Positions 23,935 through 64,000 of a stretch of DNA of 64,000 nucleotides are shown here, piece by piece. The DNA lies in assembly GCF_035582795.1 (NCBI RefSeq), contig NC_134366.1:175048272-175112271 (forward strand), given 5' to 3'. A program made the translations under genes and the position numbers. The notes under the pieces were generated by a model. It did no database searches. It was not told where the DNA came from and saw nothing but the letters and a program-made list of their open reading frames with translations. Source of the DNA: Mycteria americana. Its lineage: Eukaryota; Chordata; Aves; Ciconiiformes; Ciconiidae. How positions within the stretch are numbered: position 1 is the stretch's first letter; every line of letters begins with the position of its first letter.

Positions 23935-26900
23935 ATGGCCCTGCCGTGGGCTCTGTTGCTGCTCGGCAATGTCCTGGCACAGGACGCGGCCGCCCAGGGC
24001 TGCCTCCTTCCGCCGGCTGGTGAGTCCAAACCCTCCCTCACCAGTGGGAACGTTCCCAGGGTTGCTCCCGGTGGGACAGAGCCTCGCCGGGACACCCCGG
24101 TGACGGGCTGACCCCCCTCTTGGCAGCTTATAACGCGGCGCTGGGGCGCCCGGCCAGCCAGTCCTCCGTCTTCCCCAACATCAGCATCGCCGCCAACGCG
24201 GTGGACGGGAACCGGGACGGCATCTGGCAGCACGGCTCCTGCGCCCGCACGCAGCAAGAGCGGGAGCCGTGGTGGAGCGTGGACCTGGGCGGGCGCCGCG
24301 CCGTGGCGGCCGTGGTGGTGAAGAACCGGCAGGATTGCTGCTGGCAGCGGCTGCGGGGAGCGCAGGTCCACGTCGGTGACGCGCCGGCCGAGCGCGGCAG
24401 GGACAACCCCATGTGAGCCGAAAACGGGGGGGCTGGAGGGGGGCATCACCGCCCCACCGGTGCCACCATCTCCTGAGCCCCATCTCTTCCTCCCCGGCAG
24501 CTGCGGCATCATCACGGACGCCGGGCCCGGCTCGCTCAGCACCGTCTGCTGCGCCGGGCTGGTGGGTCGCTACGTTTCCATCCTCCTCCCCGGCCGGGAG
24601 GACGCGCTGGTGCTGTGCGAGGTGGAGGTGGTGGAGCAGGGCTGCCTCCCCCTGCCCGGAGGTGAGGGGCTCCCAGGGCAGCGACAGGGGGCCGGCAGGA
24701 TGGCAGCCGGAGCCGGCAGCCTCGTGCCACGCTCCCTCCGGCAATTCCAGCCCCCAACGTGGCACGGGGCCGTGCCGTTGCCCAGTCGTCCACGCTGAAC
24801 GCCATCAGCCTGGCCGCCAACGCTGTGGACGGGAACGGTGACGCCGACTGGGAGCACGGCTCCTGCGCCCACACCGAGAAGGAGCTGGAGCCATGGTGGC
24901 ACGTAGACCTGGGCTGCCGGTACGCCGTATACGCTGTCACCGTCACCAACCGCGGCGACTGCTGCTGGGAGAGCCTCCTCGGTGCCCAGGTCCACGTCGG
25001 GGACTCCTTGGCCAACCATGGCAAGCGCAACCCCGTGTGAGTGGGATCCCCCGGTGAGGTCCCCCACCCCAGCACGGGGCTCTCCCACCGGCCATAGCCA
25101 TGACGGTTCCCTCCCGGCAGCTGCGGGGCCATCTTGGACACCGGCCCCGGCTCCACCACCACCGTCTGCTGCAACGGGCTGCCGGGTCGCTACGTCTCCA
25201 TCATCATCCCCGGCCGGGAGGATTTCCTCGTCCTCTGTGAAGTGGAGGTGACGGCGCAGAGCTGCGTCCCCCCGCCCAGCGGTAAGGACAGAAAGACCCC
25301 CCGCCGGCAGGGAGTCGGCACGTGCCGGATGGCCGCCGGCAAGCGCTGACCTCCCCCAGCCCTTGCAGAGGTGATTTGGTCCCCGCAGCACCAGGGGAAG
25401 CGGGGGGCGTGGGGGACAGGGATGTCACACGTGTCCCTGAGCTGGCGGCACCTCGGTGTGCCGGGACGTGGCGTGGGGGTGCCTGGAGGGACAGGGGCCA
25501 CGGGTCACCGTTGGCGGTGAGCACCTGGAGCTGGCGTCACCGTCCCGTGGCATCCCCCAGCCCAAAACCTGGCCCTGTGGCGCCCAGCGGCACAGTCCTC
25601 CACAGCCGGCGAGGCCGGCAGCGCCATCAACGCCGTGGACGGGAACCGGAACAGTAACTGGCAGCACGGCTCCTGCTCTCAAACCAAGAGGGAGCCGGAG
25701 CCGTGGTGGACAGTGGACCTGGGCCGGCGCCGTGCCGTGGCGGCCGTGGTGGTGAGGAACCGCCTGGACTGCTGCTGGCACCAGCTGAAGGGCGCCCGCG
25801 TCCACGTCGGCGACTCCCTCGCCGGCCACGGCACCAATAACCCCGTGTGAGTGCCACCGCGCCGGCCCCATGGTACATGGCTGCTTTGGTGCTCGCCCAC
25901 CCTCACCCCCCTCCCCATCCCCGCAGGTGCGGCACCATCACGGACACCCGCCCTGGCTCCACCAGCACCATCTGCTGCCGCGGGCTGCGCGGCCGCTACG
26001 TCACCATCGCCATCCCCGGCCGGGAGGAGCAGCTGAGCCTGTGCGAGGTGGAGGTGGTGGAGCAGGGCTGTGCCGCGCTGCCGGGGGGTGAGTGGGCTGA
26101 GGGGGCACCGGGGGGGTCTTTTGGGCACGCGTCACCCCCAGCCTGGCCGTCCCCGCAGCCCAGAACGTGGCCCTGGGCCGCCCGGCCACCCAGTCCTCCG
26201 TGCTGGATGCCAGCAGCAGCGCCGCCAACGCCGTCGATGGGAACCGGGACGGCAACTGGGAGCACGGGTCCTGCGCCCACACCGTGGAGGAGCTGGAGCC
26301 GTGGTGGCGTGTGGATCTCGGCCGCCGGCACGCCGTCTACGCTGTGGTGGTGAAGAACCGCCACGACTGCTGCTGGGAGAGGCTGAAGGGTGCTCAGGTC
26401 CACGTCGGCAACTCCCTGGTTGACCGTGGCCGGCACAACCCAGTGTAAGCCCCCGCCCTGTCACCACCACCAGGATCCCAGCTGGGACCGTGCCGGCTTA
26501 TCATCCTCCTCCTTCTCCTAGCAGCTGCGGCATCATCACGGACGCCGGCCCTGGTTCGCTCAGCACCATCTGCTGCCACGGGCTTCACGGTCGCTACGTC
26601 TCCATCCTCCTCCCCGGCCGGGAGGACGCGCTGGTGCTGTGCGAGGTGGAGGTGATCCGGCAAGGCTGCGCCCCGCTACCCGGAGGTGAGCTGCCGGCAG
26701 AGTCCCCCCCGCAAGCCCAGGCACCCCGGCACCCACCCACGCACCCCGTGGTGTTTGCAGCCCCCAACGTGGCGTGGGAGCAGCGGGCGACGCAATCCTC
26801 CACCGCCAACGGCGCCGGCATCGCATCCAAGGCTGTAGACGGGAACCGGGACGGCATCTGGCAGCACGGCTCCTGCAGCCACACGCGGCGAGAGTGGGAG

Positions 26901-27288
26901 CCGTGGTGGAGCGTGGACCTGGGCGGGCGCCGCGCCGTGGCGGCCGTGGTGGTGAAGAACCGGCAGGATTGCTGCTGGCAGCGGCTGCGGGGAGCGCAGG
27001 TCCACGTCGGTGACGCGCCGGCCGAGCGCGGCAGGGACAACCCCATGTGAGCCGAAAACGGGGGGGCTGGAGGGGGGCATCACCGCCCCACCGGTGCCGC
27101 CCTCTCCTGAGCCCCATCTCTTCCTCCCCGGCAGCTGCGGCATCATCACAGACGCCGGGCCCGGCTCGCTCAGCACCATCTGCTGCCAGGGGCTGCAGGG
27201 CCGCTACGTCACCGTCACCATCCCGGGGCGGGAGGAGCAGCTGGCTCTCTGCGAGGTCGAGGTCTACGGCGTCTTCCCCGACCTCTGA
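23935..27288 (+). CDS. Secreted F-type lectin (fucolectin) with five FTP domains
   Basis: Eleven coding exons: 23935-24019, 24127-24412, 24501-24661, 24751-25036, 25121-25281, 25561-25846, 25927-26087, 26159-26444, 26525-26685, 26761-27046, 27135-27288, in phase, 770 aa. Exon 1 encodes a signal peptide (MALPWALLLLGNVLAQ). Each domain is one 286-bp plus one 161-bp exon (149 aa), repeated five times from about residue 29; the last is shortened. Each carries the eel-fucolectin/tachylectin-4/pentraxin signature: AANAVDGN, HGSC, EPWW.VDLG, NR.DCCW, AQVHVGD, GRYVSI..PGRE, LCEVEV. Such lectins bind fucose through a His-Arg-Arg/Lys triad. By alignment only domains 4 (CAHT, NRHDCCWER) and 5 (CSHT, NRQDCCWQR) keep all three. 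Domain 1 has CART; domain 2 has His but NRGDCCWES; domain 3 has CSQT and NRLDCCWHQ. Family assignment is firm; sugar specificity and physiological role are not shown. I do not recall a mammalian orthologue. Confidence 0.93.
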
Positions 27289-28392: not shown

Positions 28393-31300
28393 ATGGAGGC
28401 GGTTGGCACCTCGGGGGGCACTGGCCTCCCCCCGTCTCCGGTGAACCCCGGCAGCCAGCACGCACCGCCGTCCCCCCTGCAGTCCCTGCTTGAGCGGGCT
28501 GCTGCCATCGAGGAGGAGCTGGCCCAGGTGAGAGCCCCACGGGTCCCCGTGGCCACCCAGAGCCCCACGGGACCCACAGACACCCACAGCCACAGAGGCC
28601 CATGGGTCCCACTGGCCACCCACAGGTCCCCGTAGCCACCCATGATCCCAGAGCCCCATGGGTGGCCATGGCCACCCAGAGCCCCATGGGTCCCCATAGC
28701 CACCCAGGGATCCCCATGGCCACCCAGAGCCCCATGGGCCCCCACAGCCACCCACAACCATGCATCCCTGTCCCCAGAGCCACCTGCATCTCTACACCCA
28801 CTCGTGTCCCCGTGTCCCCCTCCAGGTCCCTGTGGTCCCCAGGTCCTTGCAGTCCCCCCAGGTCCCCACGACCACCCAGATCCCATGTCCCCAAAGCCAC
28901 CCCCATCCCCAGACCCCTTGTCCCCATGGGTCCCCACAGCCCCACATCCCCAAGCGACCAATCCTACCCTGGTGTCCCCCATCCTTTGGGGTGCTCTGGG
29001 ATGCTCCGGGGTGCCCTCCCCCTCCCCCAGCCCCCCCGGGATTCGAGGGGGGGACATGGGGGGGACACAGGACGGTGTCCCCGCTGAGCCACCTCCTGTC
29101 CCCAAGGGTGAGGACAAGCCCTTCACCGAGGTCACCCGCTGCCATTCGGGGGACGCAGTTGCCACCGGCCGCCAGCCCCTCACCTTCCTCCGGCAGGTAA
29201 CGGGGAGCCCCACGGCTGCCTGCACTCTGGGGGGGGGGGCCCACAGCCGGACACCCCCACCCCACAGCCGTGGGGCCATTGAGCATCAATCCAGGCACCA
29301 CCAAAGCAGATGTGGGGCACAGCTGGATCCATGACCCCCCACATCCCCCCCAGCACCCTGGGGATGGGTGGGGGGGGCCAGATCCTGACCCTGGGGGTGC
29401 CGCAGGGTGTCGGGGGGGGCTGTGACCGGCGGGACGGCCGGGTCCCCGCAGGTGGCTGCCATCTGCGCGTACCCCGAGCTGCTGGGCGCCGAGTGCCTGC
29501 CGGCGGATGCCAAGCGGCGCGCGGGCCGGATCCTGCAGCACCTGCACGGCGGCAGCCCAGGTACGGCGGGGACGGGCACGCCGTGGGGAGGGCTAGCCTC
29601 ACAGACGGGGTGTGCGGCACGGAGGGTTCACTGGATGCGGTGACGCCGGATCCGTCCCCAGGGGCGTACAACCTGGAGTACGTCACTGAGACCGTGGCCG
29701 AAAAGGTGGCCCGTTACCTGGAGCAAAGGGACGATGGCATCCCCAGCGACCCCCGCTGCATCGTCCCCTGCAGTGGCACCGCGGCGGCTGTGGTGGTGAG
29801 CGTGGCACGGGGACCAACGGTGGCACCTCCATGGTCTTGGGGACACCGAGGACCCTCCAGCCACAGTGGCTCTTCCCGGCAGGACGTGATGACGCTGCTG
29901 GTGGACGAGACGGCAGCGCAGCCAACGGGCGTGCTGGTACCGGTGCCGGGTCCCCCGCTCCATGGGGCAGCAGCGGGGCTGGCGGGGGCCCTGGCCGTGC
30001 CGTACCCGCTGGCCGAAGAGCGAGGCTGGGCCGTGGCCGGTGGGGCGGTGCGGCAGGTGCTGCGGTGGGCGCGGGCGAGATGCCACCCCAAGGTGCTCTG
30101 CGTCGTCAACCCCGGGGACCCCACAGGTGAGTGGGGGGGGACACGGGTGGCTGCCCCGTGCCTCAGTTTCCCCCATGTGGGGGGACAAAAGTGGGCTCCC
30201 CACGCACGGTGGGAGGGGACACGAGTGGGGTCCCCCCAGCAGGGCACGTGCTGAGCCGGCAGAACATGGAAGACGTCATCCGGCTGGTGGCCGAGGAAAA
30301 CCTCCTGCTGCTGGCGGACGAGGTGGGTGCCGGTGGGGGCTGGGGGGGGCCGTGCCCCCCACCCCGGCCCCCCCTGAGCCCTGGGTGCTGCAGGTGCTCC
30401 AGGACAACGTGGCCACCCCCGGCCGCCCCTTCCTCTCCTTCAAGCGGGTGCTGTGGGAGATGGGTGCTCCGCTCTCCTCCACCGTCCAGCTCGTCTCCTT
30501 CTACTCTCTCTCCAAGGGGATTGGGGGGTGAGTACCGACCCCCCAAACCCCCCCAAACCCCCCCAAACCCCCTTTCCCAGCCCCCTCCACCCTGCTGCTC
30601 CCCCAGGGGCGGTTTCCGAGCAGGTTTCTTCGAGCTGGTGAATATCGACCCGAGCGTCCTGAAGTGCTTCTACACGTGGGGGCTGTCGGTGTATCCCCCC
30701 ATCCTGGGGCAGGTGATGCTGGATACGGCCATGGAGCCCCCGCTGCCCAACGAGACCTCCCACATGGCCGTGGAGGAGGTGGGGAACACCGGGTCCTCTC
30801 CCACGCTCTGGCTGAAGGAGAGGCGGGTGCTGTGCAGCCCACCTCCATCTCCATCCCATCCCATCCCATCCCATCCCATCCCCATCCCATCCCATCCCAT
30901 CCCATCCCATCCCCACCTCCATCCCCATCCCATCCCATCCCATCCCATCCCCATCCCATCCCATCCCATCCCATCCCCACCTCCATCCCCATCCCATCCC
31001 ATCCCATCCCCATCCCATCCCATCCCATCCCATCCCCATCCCCATCCCCATCCCATCCCATCCCATCCCATCCCATCCCATCCCATCCCCATCCCATCCC
31101 ATCCCATCCCATCCCCATCCCATCCCCATCCCATCCCCACCTCCATCCCCATCCCATCCCATCCCATCCCCATCCCATCCCATCCCATCCCATCCCCATC
31201 CCCATCCCCATCCCATCCCATCCCATCCCATCCCATCCCATCCCCATCCCATCCCATCCCATCCCATCCCCATCCCCATCCCCATCCCATCCCATCCCCA

Positions 31301-33551
31301 TCCCATCCCATCCCATCCCATCCCCATCCCCATCCCATCCCCATCCCATCCCATCCCATCCCATCCCATCCCATCCCCATCCCATCCCATCCCATCCCCA
31401 CCTCCATCCCCATCCCATCCCCATCCCATCCCATCCCATCCCCATCCCATCCCATCCCATCCCATCCCATCCCCATCCCCATCCCCATCCCCATCCCATC
31501 CCATCCCATCCCCATCCCATCCCCATCCCATCCCCATCCCATCCCATCCCATCCCATCCCATCCCATCCCCATCCCATCCCCATCCCATCCCATCCCATC
31601 CCCATCCCATCCCATCCCCACCTCCATCCCCATCCCATCCCATTCCATCCCATCCCATCCCCATCCCATCCCCATCCCCATCCCATCCCCATCCCATCCC
31701 ATCCCATCCCATCCCATCCCCATCCCATCCCATCCCATCCCCATCCCCGTCCCATCCCATCCCATCCCATCCCATCCCATCCCCATCCCCATCCCATCCC
31801 ATCCCCACCTCCATCCCCATCCCATCCCATCCCATCCCATTCCATCCCATCCCATCCCATCCCATCCCCACCTCCATCCCCATCCCATCCCATCCCATCC
31901 CATCCCCATCCCATCCCATCCCATCCCCATCCCCATCCCCATCCCATCCCATCCCATCCCATCCCCATCCCATCCCCATCCCATCCCCATCCCATCCCAT
32001 CCCATCCCATCCCATCCCATCCCATCCCATCCCCACCTCCATCCCCATCCCATCCCATCCCATCCCATCCCATCCCATCCCATCCCCATCCCATCCCATC
32101 CCATCCCCATCCCCATCCCATCCCATCCCATCCCATCCCATCCCATCCCATCCCCATCCCCATCCCATCCCATCCCCACCTCCATCCCCATCCCATCCCA
32201 TCCCATCCCATCCCATCTCACCCCACCCCACCCCACCCTCCCGCTCACCCCCTCCCACCCCAGCACAGGCAGGGGCTGCGCCGTGACCTGGCCCACAACG
32301 CCCGGCTGGTGCAGGAGCTGCTGGGCCGGGCCCCCGGCATCCGCTGCCAGCCCCTGCACGGCGGCGCCCGCGCCTTCCCCCGCATCCAGCTCCCGCCCCG
32401 CGCCCTGCGCCAGGCCCGGGTGAGCGCCCGGGGGACGGGGGACCCCAGGGCCGCGGGGCCCCGGGCAGTGGGGCACGCTGGGGACAGGAGCCACCCCAGG
32501 GACGTGGGACAGCGTGGGTGCATTGGGAACCCTCTGGTAGGGGGTGTCCTGGGGACGTGGGGCATCCTGGGGACTTGGGACACCATGGGAGATGGGACAC
32601 CATGGGAGTACAGAGCATCCTGGGGACATGGGACACCCTGGGGACATGGGACACCATGGGAGATGGGACACCGTGGGAGTACAGAGCATCCTGGGGACAT
32701 GGGACACCTTGGGGCCATAGGACTCTCCAGGGACATGGGACACGGTTGGAGTATGGGGCACCCTGTAGTACGGGGCGTCCTGGGGACGTGGGGCACCCTG
32801 GAGATGCACAGAAACCCATGGCATGGGGTGTCCTGGGGACGTCCTGGGGACACCCTGGGGACAGGGTGACCATCCCATCCCTCCTCCTCCAGGAGCTGGG
32901 CCTGGAGCCCGATGTCTTCTTCTGCCAGAAGCTGCTGGAGGCAACGGGGATCGTGCTGGCCCCAGGGAGCGTGTTCGGGCAGCCGGAGGGCACCCACCAC
33001 GTGGGGTACGCAGGCGGGGGCGGGGGGGGCGATGGGTGACGAGAGGTGCTGGGGTGGGCGTTTGGGTGATGGGAGATGGTGGGGAGGGGCCCTTGGGGTT
33101 GATGTTTTGGGGTTGGGTGGTGGGTGGGCGACGTTGGGGGCTCATGGGTTGGCAGGGGGAGATGGTTTGGGTTGGGAAGTTGGGGTGATGGGAGATGCGG
33201 GGGGCCGGTGGGGTGGGTGGGGCTGGGGGGTTGGGTTGGGTGTCGGGGGCCGAGGGTTGGGTGGGGTTGGGGGCTGGCTGGGACGGGTGGGTGAGGACAG
33301 GTTATGGGGGGGGCCGGTTGAGGTTGGCCAACGGGGATGTCATGGATGGTGGGGCTGGTTGGGGACCACTGGGTTTGGACACCAGGAGGTTTTTTGGGGG
33401 GGGACAACGGGGATGGGGGGGTGGAACCACCCACGTCCCCACCGCGCCCCCCACCCCCAGGCTGTCGCTGCTGCTGCCGGCCGAGGCGCTGGAGCGGGTG
33501 CTGCTCGCCCTCACCGGCTTCCACGCCGCCTTCCTGCGGGACTTCTCCTGA
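28393..33551 (+). CDS. Divergent alanine-aminotransferase paralogue
   Basis: Class I/II PLP aminotransferase related to GPT. Exons: 28393-28527, 29107-29196, 29452-29560, 29662-29795, 29883-30126, 30243-30322, 30394-30527, 30607-30778, 32264-32419, 32893-33005, 33461-33551, in phase, 485 aa. Exon lengths match the neighbouring GPT almost exactly (90, 109, 244, 80, 113 and 91 bp identical), so it is a duplicate. Retained: KPFTEV, LTFLRQ, LLADE, QDNV, SLSKG with the PLP lysine at about 305, and FGQPEGT. Lost or changed: VEYAVRG is absent from exon 1; STGAS became SGTAA; PQYPLYS became PGPPLHG; NPGNPTG became NPGDPTG; DEVY became DEVL; the carboxylate-binding Arg of HFRMTILPP is Gly (about 456). 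Frame and splice sites are intact, so it is not an obvious pseudogene, but ordinary transaminase activity is doubtful. The exon 6 acceptor could lie 3 bp upstream. Confidence 0.88.
28540..28760. repeat. Degenerate minisatellite in intron 1 of the GPT paralogue
   Basis: Repeated GCCACCCAGAGCCCCATGGG and ATGGGTCCCCATAGCCACCC blocks, roughly 30-35 bp each. Further C-rich degenerate repeats run on to about 28970. Confidence 0.65.
30845..32216. repeat. (CCCAT)n pentanucleotide array in intron 8 of the GPT paralogue
   Basis: About 1.37 kb of CCCAT units mixed with CCCCAT. A recurring CCCCACCTCCATCCCC interruption (for example near 30911, 30976, 31136, 31398, 31617, 31805, 31866, 32032 and 32176) suggests a loose higher-order unit. 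Left border: CACCTCCATCTCCATCCC. Right border: a change from CCCAT to CCCAC units, then C-rich sequence up to the exon 9 acceptor. Long open frames here (SHPIP-type peptides and their complement) are artefacts. Confidence 0.97.
32480..32870. repeat. Minisatellite in intron 9 of the GPT paralogue
   Basis: Tandem variants of GGGGACATGGGACACC and ATGGGAGTACAGAGCATCCT with irregular period; the clearest stretch is 32570-32720. Confidence 0.7.
33010..33440. repeat. G/T-rich degenerate repeat in intron 10 of the GPT paralogue
   Basis: The intron is full of GGTTGGGTGGGGTTGGG-like variants without a strict period and has no coding signal. The exon 11 acceptor (cccccag) ends at 33460. Confidence 0.5.
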
Positions 33552-33581: not shown

Positions 33582-33587
33582 ATTAAA
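33582..33587 (+). terminator. Poly(A) signal of the GPT paralogue
   Basis: ATTAAA lies about 30 bp past the stop codon. A minus-strand signal for GPT lies about 190 bp further on, so the two convergent transcripts end very close together or overlap. Confidence 0.6.
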
Positions 33588-33774: not shown

Positions 33775-33780
33775 TTTATT
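33775..33780 (-). terminator. GPT poly(A) signal
   Basis: TTTATT on the plus strand reads AATAAA on the minus strand, about 290 bp downstream of the GPT stop codon at 34067. Confidence 0.7.
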
Positions 33781-34066: not shown

Positions 34067-42589
<8,523 letters not shown>

Positions 42590-42949
42590 GGCCCGCCCGG
42601 CCGGGAGCCTGCGGGGCCGCAGCGCCCTCAGCGCCCGCATCGCCCCGGGGCCACCGGCACCGGCCCCGGGCGGAGACGGAGCCACCCCCCCCACCCCCCC
42701 CCCCGCCCCCCGGCACCGCCCCGGGCAACGGGCACCGGCACCGGCACCGGCACCGCCCCGGGCAGCGGGGCAACGAGCGGCGGGGCCGGGCACCAGCACC
42801 GGGCACCGGGACAGGGGACAGGGAACCGGGCACCGGCACCGGCGGCAACGGGGGCGGCACCGTGACCGGGACCCGGGCACCGGGACCGGCACCGGGCGGG
42901 GTCTCGGGAGCGTGCGGTGCTGCCACGGAGTGTCCTGGCCCGCGGGCTG

Positions 42950-57949: not shown

Positions 57950-60900
57950 GGGGGTGGGGTGGGGTGGGGTGGGGTGGGGTGGGATGGGATGGGATGGGAT
58001 GGGATGGGATGGGATGGGATGGGATGGGGATGGGATGGGATGGGGATGGGGGTGGGGATGGGATGGGATGGGATGGGGATGGGATGGATGGGATGGGATG
58101 GGATGGGCATGGGATGGGGATGGGATGGGATGGGATGGGATGGGATGGAGATGGGATGGGATGGGGATGGGGGTGGGGATGGGATGGGATGGGATGGGAT
58201 GGATGGGATGGGATGGGATGGGATGGGATGGATGGGATGGGATGGGATGGGATGGGATGGGATGGGATGGGATGGGATGGGGATGGGATGGGGATGGGAT
58301 GGGGATGGATGGGATGGGATGGGGATGGGATGGGATGGGATGGGGATGGATGGGGATGGGATGGGATGGATGGGATGGGATGGGATGGGATGGGATGGGA
58401 TGGATGGGATGGGATGGGATGGATGGGATGGGCATGGGATGGGATGGGATGGGATGGGATGGGATGGATGGGATGGGCATGGGATGGGGATGGGATGGGA
58501 TGGGATGGGATGGGATGGATGGGATGGGATGGGGATGGGATGGGATGGGATGGGATGGGATGGGGATGGGATGGGATGGGATGGGGATGGGGATGGGATG
58601 GGATGGGGATGGGATGGGATGGATGGATGGGATGGGATGGGATGGGGATGGGGATGGGATGGGATGGGATGGGGATGGGATGGGATGGGATGGGATGGGA
58701 TGGGATGGGATGGGATGGGATGGGATGGGATGGGATGGGATGGGATGGGGATGGGGATGGGATGGGATGGGATGGGATGGGATGGGGATGGGGATGGGAT
58801 GGATGGGGATGGGATGGGATGGGATGGGATGGGGATGGGATGGGGATGGGATGGGTTGGGATGGGATGGGATGGGATGGGATGGGATGGGATGGGGATGG
58901 GATGGGGATGGGATGGGGATGGGATGGGATGGGATGGATGGGATGGGATGGGATGGGATGGGATGGGATGGATGGGATGGGATGGGATGGGATGGGATGG
59001 GGATGGGATGGGGATGGGATGGGATGGGATGGATGGGATGGGATGGGATGGGGATGGGATGGGATGGGATGGGATGGGATGGGATGGATGGGATGGGATG
59101 GGATGGGATGGGATGGATGGGATGGGATGGGGATGGGGATGGGATGGGATGGGATGGGATGGATGGGATGGATGGGATGGGATGGGGATGGGATGGGATG
59201 GGGATGGGATGGATGGGATGGGATGGGATGGGATGGGATGGGGATGGGATGGGATGGGATGGATGGGATGGGATGGGATGGGGATGGGGATGGGATGGGA
59301 TGGGGATGGGATGGGATGGGATGGGATGGGGATGGGATGGGATGGGGATGGGGATGGGATGGGATGGGGATGGGATGGGGATGGGATGGGATGGGATGGG
59401 ATGGGATGGGATGGGGATGGATGGGGATGGGATGGGATGGGATGGGGATGGGATGGGATGGGATGGGATGGGATGGGATGGATGGGATGGGATGGATGGG
59501 ATGGGATGGGATGGGGATGGGATGGGATGGGGATGGGATGGGGATGGGATGGGGATGGGATGGGATGGGGATGGGATGGGATGGGATGGGATGGGATGGG
59601 ATGGGGATGGGATGGGATGGGATGGGATGGGATGGGGATGGGATGGGATGGGATGGGATGGGGATGGGATGGGGATGGGATGGGGATGGGATGGGATGGG
59701 ATGGATGGGATGGGATGGGATGGGATGGGATGGGATGGGATGGGATGGGATGGATGGGGATGGGATGGGATGGGATGGGGATGGGATGGGATGGGGATGG
59801 GATGGGGATGGGATGGATGGGATGGGAGGGATGGGGATGGGATGGGATGGGGATGGGATGGATGGGATGGGATGGGATGGGATGGGATGGGATGGATGGG
59901 ATGGGATGGGATGGGATTGGGATGGGATGGGATGGGATGGGATGGGATGTGGGATGGGATGGGATGGGATGGGATGGGATGGGATGGGATGGGATGGGAT
60001 GGGATGGGATGGGATGGGATGGGATGGGATGGGATGGGATGGGATGGGATGGGATGGGATGGGATGGGATGGGATGGGATGGATGGGATGGGATGGGATG
60101 GGATGGGATGGGGATGGGATGGGATGGGATGGGATGGGATGGATGGATGGGATGGATGGGATGGGATGGGATGGGATGGGATGGGATGGGATGGGATGGG
60201 ATGGGATGGGATGGGATGGGATGGGATGGGATGGGATGGGATGGGGATGGGATGGGATGGGATGGGATGGGATGGGATGGGATGGGATGGGGATGGGGAT
60301 GGGATGGGATGGGATGGGATGGGATGGGAGATGGGATGGGATGGGATGGGGATGGGATGGATGGGATGGGATGGGATGGGATGGGATGGGATGGGATGGA
60401 TGGGATGGGATGGGATGGGATGGGATGGGATGGGGATGGGATGGATGGGATGGGATGGGATGGGATGGGATGGGATGGGATGGGATGGGATGGGGATGGG
60501 ATGGGGATGGGATGGGATGGGATGGGATGGGGATGGGGATGGGATGGGATGGGGATGGGATGGATGGGATGGGATGGGGGATGGGATGGGGATGGGATGG
60601 GATGGGATGGGATGGGATGGGATGGGATGGGATGGGATGGGATGGGATGGGATGGGATGGGATGGATGGGATGGGATGGGGATGGGATGGGATGGGATGG
60701 GATGGGATGGGATGGATGGGATGGGGGATGGGATGGGATGGGATGGGATGGGATGGGATGGGGATGGGAGGATGGGGATGGAGGGATGGGGATGGGGATG
60801 GGATGGGATGGGATGGGATGGATGGGATGGGATGGGATGGGATGGGATGGGGATGGGATGGGATGGGTGGATGGGATGGGATGGGATGGGATGGGATGGG

Positions 60901-63900
60901 ATGGGATGGGATGGATGGGATGGGATGGGATGGGATGGGATGGGATGGGGATGGGGATGGGATGGGATGGGATGGGATGGGATGGGGATGGGATGGGATG
61001 GGGATGGGGATGGGATGGGGATGGATGGGATGGGATGGGATGGGATGGGATGGGATGGGATGGGGATGGGATGGATGGGATGGGATGGGATGGGATGGAT
61101 GGGATGGGATGGGATGGGTGGATGGGGATGGGATGGATGGGATGGGATGGGATGGGATGGGATGGGATGGGATGGGGATGGGATGGGATGGGATGGGATG
61201 GGATGGGGATGGGATGGATGGGATGGGATGGGATGGGGATGGGATGGATGGGATGGGATGGGATGGGATGGGATGGGATGGGGATGGGATGGGATGGGAT
61301 GGGGATGGGATGGGATGGGATGGGATGGGATGGATGGATGGGATGGGATGGGATGGGATGGGGATGGGATGGGATGGGATGGGATGGGATGGGATGGGAT
61401 GGGATGGGATGGGATGGGGATGGGATGGGATGGGGATGGGATGGGATGGGATGGGATGGGATGGGATGGGATGGGGATGGGATGGGATGGGATGGGATGG
61501 GATGGATGATGGGATGGGATGGGATGGATGGATGGATGGGATGGGGATGGGATGGGATGGGATGGGATGGATGGGATGGGGATGGGATGGGATGGGATGG
61601 GGATGGGATGGGGATGGGGATGGGATGGGGATGGGATGGGATGGGATGGGATGGGGATGGGATGGGATGGGGATGGGATGGGATGGGATGGGATGGATGG
61701 GATGGGGATGGGATGGGATGGGATGGGATGGGGATGGGATGGGATGGGGATGGGGATGGGATGGGATGGGATGGGGATGGGATGGGATGGGATGGGGATG
61801 GGATGGGGATGGGATGGGATGGGATGGGATGGATGGGGATGGGATGGGATGGGATGGGGATGGGATGGGATGGGATGGGATGGGATGGGGATGGGATGGG
61901 ATGGGATGGGATGGATGGGATGGGTGGATGGGATGGGGATGGGATGGGGATGGGATGGGATGGGATGGGATGGGATGGGATGGGGATGGGATGGATGGGA
62001 TGGGATGGGATGGGATGGGGATGGGGATGGGATGGGATGGGGATGGGATGGGATGGGATGGTGGGATGGGATGGATGGGATGGATGGGATGGGATGGGAT
62101 GGGGATGGGATGGGATGGGATGGGATGGGGATGGGATGGGATGGGATGGGATGGGATGGATGGGGATGGGATGGGATGGGATGGGATGGGATGGGATGGG
62201 GATGGGATGGGATGGGATGGGATGGGATGGGATGGGATGGATGGGATGGGATGGGATGGATGGGATGGGGATGGGGATGGGGATGGGATGGGATGGGATG
62301 GGATGGGATGGATGGGGATGGGATGGGGAGGGATGGGATGGGATGGGATGGGATGGGATGGGATGGATGGGATGGGATGGGGATGGGATGGGGATGGGAT
62401 GGGATGGGATGGGATGGGATGGATGGGATGGGGGGATGGGATGGGATGGGATGGGGATGGGATGGGGATGGGATGGGATGGGAGGATGGGATGGGATGGG
62501 GATGGGATGGGATGGGGATGGGAGGGATGGGGATGGGATGGGGATGGGATGGGATGGGATGGGGATGGGATGGATGGGATGGGATGGGATGGGATGGATG
62601 GGATGGGATGGGATGGGATGGGATGGGATGGATGGGATGGGATGGGATGGGGATGGGGATGGGATGGGGATGGGATGGGATGGGATGGGGATGGGATGGG
62701 GATGGGATGGGATGGGATGGGATGGGATGGGGATGGGATGGGATGGGGATGGGGATGGGGATGGGATGGATGGGATGGGATGGGGTGGATGGGATGGGGA
62801 TGGGGATGGGGATGGGATGGGATGGGATGGGATGGATGGGATGGGATGGGGATGGATGGGATGGGGATGGGGATGGGATGGGATGGGATGGGATGGGGAT
62901 GGGGATGGATGGGATGGGGATGGGATGGGGATGGGGATGGGGATGGGATGGGATGGATGGGATGGGATGGGATGGGATGGGATGGGGATGGGATGGGATG
63001 GGATGGATGGGGATGGGGATGGGATGGGATGGGATGGGGATGGGATGGGATGGGATGGGATGGGGATGGGATGGGATGGGATGGGATGGGATGGGGATGG
63101 GGATGGGATGGGATGGATGGGATGGGATGGGATGGGATGGGATGGGGATGGGATGGGATGGGATGGGATGGGATGGGATGGGATGGGATGGGATGGATGG
63201 GGATGGGGATGGGATGGGATGGGATGGGGATGGGATGGGATGGGATGGGATGGGATGGGATGGGGATGGATGGATGGGATGGGGATGGGATGGGATGGGG
63301 ATGGGATGGGATGGGATGGGGATGGGGATGGGATGGGATGGGGATGGGATGGGATGGGATGGGGATGGGATGGGATGGGATGGGGATGGGATGGGGATGG
63401 GATGGGATGGGATGGGGATGGGATGGGGATGGGATGGGATGGGATGGGATGGGGATGGGATGGGATGGGGATGGGATGGGTGGATGGGATGGGGATGGGA
63501 TGGGATGGGATGGGATGGGATGGGGATGGGGATGGGATGGGATGGGGATGGGATGGGATGGGATGGGATGGGGATGGGATGGGATGGATGGGATGGGATG
63601 GGATGGGATGGGGATGGGATGGGATGGGATGGGGATGGGATGGGGATGGGGATGGGATGGGGATGGGGATGGGATGGGATGGGGATGGGATGGATGGGGA
63701 TGGGGATGGGATGGGATGGGATGGATGGGGATGGGAGGATGGGGATGGGATGGGATGGGATGGGGATGGGATGGGATGGGATGGATGGATGGGATGGGAT
63801 GGGGATGGATGGGATGGGATGGGATGGGATGGGATGGGGATGGGATGGGATGGGGATGGGATGGGATGGGATGGGGATGGGGATGGGATGGGATGGGGAT

Positions 63901-64000
63901 GGGGATGGGGATGGGGGGAGGGGTGGATGGGATGGGATGGGGATGGGGATGGGATGGGATGGGATGGGATGGGATGGGGATGGGGATGGGGATGGGATGG
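57950..64000. repeat. (GGGAT)n array of at least 6 kb
   Basis: Continuous GGGAT units mixed with GGGGAT and GGAT variants from about 57985 to the window end, preceded by five to six GGGGT units (57954-57984). It is G-rich on the plus strand with no flanking unique sequence on the right, so its full length is unknown. The very long WDGMG-type open frame across it is an artefact of a stop-free pentamer. Single-base variants (GGGTT, GGGAG, GTGGG) are rare and scattered. Confidence 0.98.

Follow-up and report, generated by a model that had tools for sequence, protein, structure and literature searches.

Alanine aminotransferase, routinely measured as a clinical marker, joins the metabolism of amino acids to that of sugars. 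In the E. coli enzyme AlaA, the PLP-N-R link of Asn179 and Arg378 (PLP, pyridoxal 5'-phosphate) is a hallmark of productive binding (PMC4094517). A paralogue of a PLP enzyme without catalytic residues is known from serine palmitoyltransferase, whose non-catalytic subunit LCB1 (SPTLC1) works in a heterodimer (PMC3794620). In GC-rich regions of avian genomes, proteins drift toward Gly, Ala, Arg and Pro (GARP) and away from Phe, Tyr, Met, Ile, Asn and Lys (FYMINK) and diverge faster; the subtelomeres of chicken macrochromosomes are enriched in GC, and GC-biased gene conversion is named as a likely mechanism (PMC8449477). Here, we analysed the final 64 kb of a chromosome-size contig of Mycteria americana (C2:175048272-175112271; "the window" below; assembly of 1.35 Gb in 279 contigs), which carries a GPT-like gene, GPTL, at 28393-33551 (+). 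With moderate confidence, we read GPTL as a fold-conserved, transaminase-dead paralogue of GPT, i.e., a pseudoenzyme, perhaps acting as a non-catalytic dimer. It has probably lost the enzyme chemistry while keeping the overall fold and part of the cofactor pocket, and the best account is that it was shaped in part by GC-biased drift. Our searches of an open-access library yielded no published account of GPTL; transcriptome papers on a coral snake and a toad offered gene names only. An open paralogue shorn of catalytic residues would test whether the transaminase fold can be retained for another purpose.

Active-site positions were taken from AlaA. Sixteen of them were mapped by alignment, the numbering being offset by 26, and all 16 carried a letter given in the paper, which writes both Leu and Ile for position 276 (PMC4094517). 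Val104, which is not conserved, was dropped, and Tyr15, Ile17, Arg18, Ile40, and Gly41 were placed by motif, which gave a set of 20. The canonical GPT next to GPTL, human GPT2, and the barley enzyme are identical at all 20. In GPTL, eight are retained (AlaA numbers; asterisks mark residues acting across the dimer): Gly41, Tyr68*, Asp207, the Ile213 position, Ser239, Lys240, Arg248, and Leu382. The other 12, which both GPT (ALT1) and human GPT2 (ALT2) hold, are lost: Tyr15, Ile17, Arg18, Ile40, Ser105, Tyr129, Asn179, Tyr210, Leu276*, Leu332, Tyr333, and Arg378.

On the cofactor side, the Schiff-base lysine (Lys305, in SLSKG) and the aspartate at the pyridine N1 (Asp263, in LLADE) are present in GPTL, as the initial annotation of this DNA had said. 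The PLP-phosphate site still has Ser304, Arg313, and Tyr114 as well, a retention that this annotation had understated. The lysine by itself is weak evidence of PLP binding. On the substrate side, the carboxylate-binding arginine (AlaA Arg378) is Gly456. The two O3' ligands Asn179 and Tyr210 are Asp235 and Leu266, and the ring-stacking Tyr129 is Pro180. Both residues of the PLP-N-R link are gone, along with Tyr210. In class I aminotransferases, losing Asn179, Arg378, and Tyr210 should abolish normal transamination. Judged by its residues, GPTL would be very unlikely to carry out ordinary transamination. The N-terminal plug (Tyr-x-Val/Ile-Arg-Gly) is also missing, as Tyr59, Val61, Arg62, and Gly63 of GPT correspond to Pro, Pro, Leu, and Gln. 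Alignment to GPT showed every replacement that had been listed before (NPGNPTG to NPGDPTG, DEVY to DEVL, PQYPLYS to PGPPLHG, and STGAS to SGTAA), and likewise the change of HFR to HVG, which replaces the substrate arginine with glycine, and the absence of VEYAVRG.

The coordinates of GPTL are exact, with the ATG at 28393 and a TGA finishing at 33551. Its 11 exons splice in phase to a coding sequence of 1458 nt (485 aa) without internal stops, and all ten introns are GT-AG, which bears out the intact frame of the initial annotation. The marks of a pseudogene that were looked for in the 11-exon model (stops, frameshifts, broken splice sites) were absent. The protein matches a single Pfam family, Aminotran_1_2 (PF00155, class I/II aminotransferase; E = 2.4e-23), and the best match among solved structures is human alanine aminotransferase 2 (GPT2; 3ihj, E = 3e-120). 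CpG-island-like DNA lies directly upstream of the ATG (500-base windows starting at 27.75 and 28.0 kb: observed/expected 0.78-0.79, GC 0.74). The features of GPTL and its surroundings are as follows:

28393-28527 (+): GPTL exon 1, with the ATG within GCCATGG and without the VEYAVRGP plug motif
29107-29196 (+): GPTL exon 2
29452-29560 (+): GPTL exon 3
29662-29795 (+): GPTL exon 4, with Tyr114 (AlaA Tyr68*) retained and the phosphate-loop Ser replaced by Ala152
29883-30126 (+): GPTL exon 5, with the ring-stacking Tyr replaced by Pro180 and NPGNPTG by NPGDPTG (Asp235)
30243-30322 (+): GPTL exon 6, with Asp263 (pyridine N1) retained
30394-30527 (+): GPTL exon 7, with Tyr replaced by Leu266 and Ser304 and the Schiff-base Lys305 retained
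30607-30778 (+): GPTL exon 8, with Arg313 retained
30845-32235 (+): (CCATC)n array within intron 8 of GPTL
32264-32419 (+): GPTL exon 9, with Tyr replaced by Arg402
32893-33005 (+): GPTL exon 10, whose last two bases begin the codon of Gly456 (Arg in GPT)
33461-33551 (+): GPTL exon 11, including the stop
33582-33587 (+): ATTAAA, a polyadenylation-signal-like hexamer downstream of GPTL, starting 31 nt past the stop
33775-33780 (-): AATAAA hexamer downstream of GPT
34067-42640 (-): canonical GPT, 11 exons, 519 aa, convergent (tail-to-tail) with GPTL

GPTL is 46.5% identical to GPT (225/484) and 40.9% identical to the GPT2 of its own genome (193/472). All ten introns have the same positions and phases in GPTL and GPT, which supports the earlier view of GPTL as the duplicate of a GPT-type gene. 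The accompanying claim that exon lengths match exon by exon stands in part: seven of the 11 are equal (90, 109, 244, 80, 156, 113, and 91 nt), three are off by one codon (134/131, 134/137, and 172/175 in GPTL/GPT), and exon 1 is different (135/234), its initial part aligning poorly. The N-terminal extension ahead of MNP in GPT (42407-42640, -) begins arginine-rich and then becomes alanine-rich; its codons 1 and 18 are in-frame ATGs. This stretch may serve in mitochondrial targeting. No comparable N-terminal extension is present in GPTL.

More distant members of the family were also seen. Two Geothrix genomes (L001:611-1945 and L002:611-1945) carry a GPT-type aminotransferase with canonical motifs. 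The L001 enzyme is 49-50% identical to GPT and to both GPT2s, which exceeds the identity of GPTL to any of these three. When GPTL exon 5 (81 of the 485 residues) was used as the query, at least two Geothrix loci were among the matches listed for genome contigs, and no relative was found among viral contigs.

To compare the loss in the active site with background, we used the 151 columns at which GPT, the two GPT2s, barley, and a Geothrix enzyme all agree. Among those not in the active site, GPTL retains 36/44 of the GARP residues, 35/58 of the intermediate class, and 11/29 of the FYMINK residues. With rates matched to these classes, the positions of ring and substrate chemistry are depleted (1/12 retained, 6.3 expected, P = 0.0007), although the plug positions, being neighbours, are not independent. 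Positions for the phosphate, N1, and the Schiff base are retained in 5/6 cases (3.4 expected, P = 0.17). Without matching, 8/20 active-site columns are retained vs 109/167 others (P = 0.048); adding two Geothrix enzymes gives 8/20 vs 83/132 (P = 0.08).

The initial annotation had suggested a PLP-binding protein with a new substrate or a non-enzymatic role. PLP binding would be possible given the five retained contacts, but their retention is not above background. A new substrate is unsupported, as the residues on the substrate side are gone and much of the change as a whole tracks GC-biased drift. A PLP enzyme with another reaction, e.g., on amines, would need no alpha-carboxylate arginine and could use Lys305, Asp263, Ser304, Arg313, and Tyr114. 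We regard such an enzyme as quite improbable, since the loss affects the two O3' ligands, the stacking Tyr, and the plug together and the PLP set is kept no better than background. Nothing indicates another class either, because Aminotran_1_2 is the sole Pfam match and human GPT2 the best structure.

Much of the change in GPTL follows amino-acid composition. Of the 314 columns where GPT and both GPT2s share a residue, GPTL is changed at 143, with 13 changes from FYMINK to GARP and one in reverse. FYMINK residues are retained at 28/76 columns vs 69/99 for GARP (P = 1.7e-5). For GPTL, GPT, and the genome's GPT2, the GARP/FYMINK contents are 0.365/0.126, 0.306/0.213, and 0.247/0.312, respectively. 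GPTL thus fits the drift signature published for GC-rich avian DNA (PMC8449477), and because the drift toward GC-coded residues is strong, much of its divergence need not be adaptive. Several of the lost catalytic residues (Tyr, Asn, Ile, and Met in GPT) belong to the class eroded by this bias; Val61, Arg62, Ser184, Leu371, and Arg490 of GPT are lost and lie outside it. These data suggest how an active site encoded close to a chromosome end can lose AT-coded tyrosines and an asparagine to GC-biased substitution, so that a pseudoenzyme would arise in part without adaptation.

GPTL resembles the avian "hidden" genes in its high GC content, GARP-rich and FYMINK-poor protein, fast divergence, and subtelomere-type place (PMC8449477). 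Those tested (ALDOA, ENO3, PYGM, and SLC2A4) are crucial for muscle energy homeostasis, whereas GPTL is without its catalytic set. "GPT" is not mentioned in the main text of that paper.

The same bias could act on a gene in decay, which lost its function recently and is eroded near the chromosome end without having acquired a stop yet. Apart from the contrast between FYMINK and GARP columns, this is favoured by the long GPTL branch (1.09 substitutions/site, about five times that of GPT at 0.21; genome's GPT2 0.035) and by the FYMINK positions of the active site, which are retained about as often (3/10) as other FYMINK positions (11/29). Decay nevertheless seems to us rather unlikely, if the least unlikely of the alternatives. 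GPTL has neither stop nor frameshift, and its ten introns are GT-AG. The loss may in part go beyond what composition explains, because non-FYMINK positions are retained at 5/10 in the active site vs 71/102 elsewhere. Furthermore, deeply conserved columns are preferentially kept: those with the same residue in GPT, human GPT2, and barley are retained at 117/187, and those where barley differs at 59/133 (P = 0.0014). GPTL evolves fast by residue counts too: with human GPT2 as the outgroup, 148 residues are uniquely changed in GPTL vs 23 in GPT.

Neutral evolution was simulated from the GPT coding sequence in 2000 runs. At 0.4 substitutions/site, a mean of 6.1 stops arose and the probability of no stop was 0.0015; at 76% GC, these values were 4.7 and 0.0075. 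At an assumed ratio of one indel per 10 substitutions, this divergence should bring about 56 indels, and the internal length differences amount to three single codons. In a three-branch codon model, omega = 1 was rejected for the branch of GPTL (lnL -4519.1 vs -4540.0, a cost of 21), which is rough and supporting evidence only, because synonymous divergence (dS) is saturated and the compositions differ. Neutral decay ever since the duplication fits poorly, given the lack of stops, the single-codon indels, and, with saturated dS, the codon test; a recent relaxation would be compatible with these data. The initial annotation had taken the in-phase exons as a sign of selection on the protein. Past selection agrees with the intact frame, the indels, the retained deep columns, and the rejection of omega = 1, with the codon test as its rough part. 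Pairwise dN/dS was discarded as a number due to the saturation of dS. The codon-position pattern (0.372/0.329/0.440) was discarded as a measure of constraint on GPTL, since a neutral GPTL beside a constrained GPT could give nearly this pattern.

For the pseudoenzyme that we favour, the following course can be proposed. Through much of its past, selection on the folded protein may have maintained GPTL. The contacts to the PLP phosphate, N1, and the lysine may still permit weak cofactor binding. GPTL may also dimerise, with another GPTL or with GPT, in a role without catalysis. Dimerisation is the weakest step; its sole grounds are the habit of the family and a single retained tyrosine whose AlaA counterpart works across the dimer. 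A non-enzymatic or partner role would be plausible. More specifically, a GPTL-GPT heterodimer, in which the dead subunit supplies the phosphate tyrosine in trans and tunes alanine transamination in this lineage, would be possible but unlikely. Like LCB1, GPTL is a paralogue of a PLP enzyme without catalytic residues. LCB1, however, lacks the PLP-binding lysine and is a heterodimer subunit (PMC3794620), whereas GPTL retains Lys305 and is not known to have a partner.

Several points weigh against this reading. Taken jointly, the 20 positions are not depleted (8 retained vs 10.7 expected, P = 0.15), and the role groups follow PMC4094517 but were set after the pattern was seen. The plug loss weighs less, because in human ALT2 the plug is located elsewhere and the role of Tyr15 may be taken over (PMC4094517). 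The two residues acting across the AlaA dimer differ in fate, Tyr68* being retained and Leu276* replaced by Val. In the neutral simulation, the probability of no stop rises to 0.016-0.029 at 0.2 and 0.08-0.12 at 0.1 substitutions/site. Pairwise dS is ~20, the branch lengths of the codon model lie at their bound, and the genes differ strongly in base composition (GC3, the GC content of third codon positions, is 0.90, 0.94, and 0.43). The intactness of GPTL would bear on most of its history and not on present constraint.

In trees, GPTL is placed either as the sister of GPT (approximately unbiased (AU) test, 0.41) or outside GPT and GPT2 (AU 0.63), and two further data sets gave a like picture; the duplication may predate or follow the GPT/GPT2 split. 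The deep placement is likely long-branch attraction. A derivation from GPT2, with GPTL as its sister, was rejected by AU in all three data sets (0.013, 0.023, and 0.015) and in none of them by the Kishino-Hasegawa (KH) or Shimodaira-Hasegawa (SH) tests (0.088 and 0.13 in the data set with AU 0.015); the data set with 0.013 included an unverified human GPT1 sequence. Polarised residues do not separate these alternatives, being shared by GPTL with GPT at 7, with human GPT2 at 6, and with barley at 18 positions. Because GPTL and GPT adjoin tail-to-tail, a local inverted duplication of GPT is favoured. The (CCATC)n pentamer array of GPTL intron 8 is also found in GPT intron 8 (35027-35803). Both arrays lie on one DNA strand, i.e., in opposite sense relative to their genes, an arrangement at odds with a simple inverted duplication.

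When the genome was searched in six frames with GPTL as the query and only the best candidates were scored, 21 matches at E ≤ 0.01 fell at three places: GPTL (11), GPT (6), and a gene on contig C8 (4). The last reads as GPT2, being 90.3% (428/474) identical to human GPT2. As matches fall only at GPTL, GPT, and GPT2, GPTL is single-copy at this depth. An artefact of assembly or gene model in GC-rich DNA might be suspected at the end of a contig that finishes in 6 kb of (GGGAT)n. We consider it very improbable, as the 11 exons are in phase across 5 kb and the genome search returned one near-self match for each of them. Exon by exon, identity to GPT ranges over 33-61%, and hence no single local error is at work. 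The contig end itself lies within this ~6 kb array (57951-64000), where the G skew is near 1.

The neighbours across 6.4-57.9 kb are presumably C8orf82, LRRC14 (-), RECQL4 (+), PPP1R16A (-), and FOXH1 (-), the exons of FOXH1 being read by eye. The human locus has MFSD3 between RECQL4 and GPT. Of eight flanking stretches searched against Pfam, four matched: DUF4505 (8.2-8.7 kb), ankyrin (46.0-46.9 kb), and two domain halves of a lectin-like gene; the stretches of LRRC14, FOXH1, and RECQL4 (two) gave no match. This lectin-like gene lies upstream of GPTL (23935-27288, +), looks secreted, and has five domain copies with a WxHGSC...NRxDCCW signature, which is that of F-type (fucose-binding) lectins. 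Both domain halves tested match F5/8 type C families. According to PMC5712786, F-type lectin domains are present in birds and reptiles and apparently absent in eutherian mammals.

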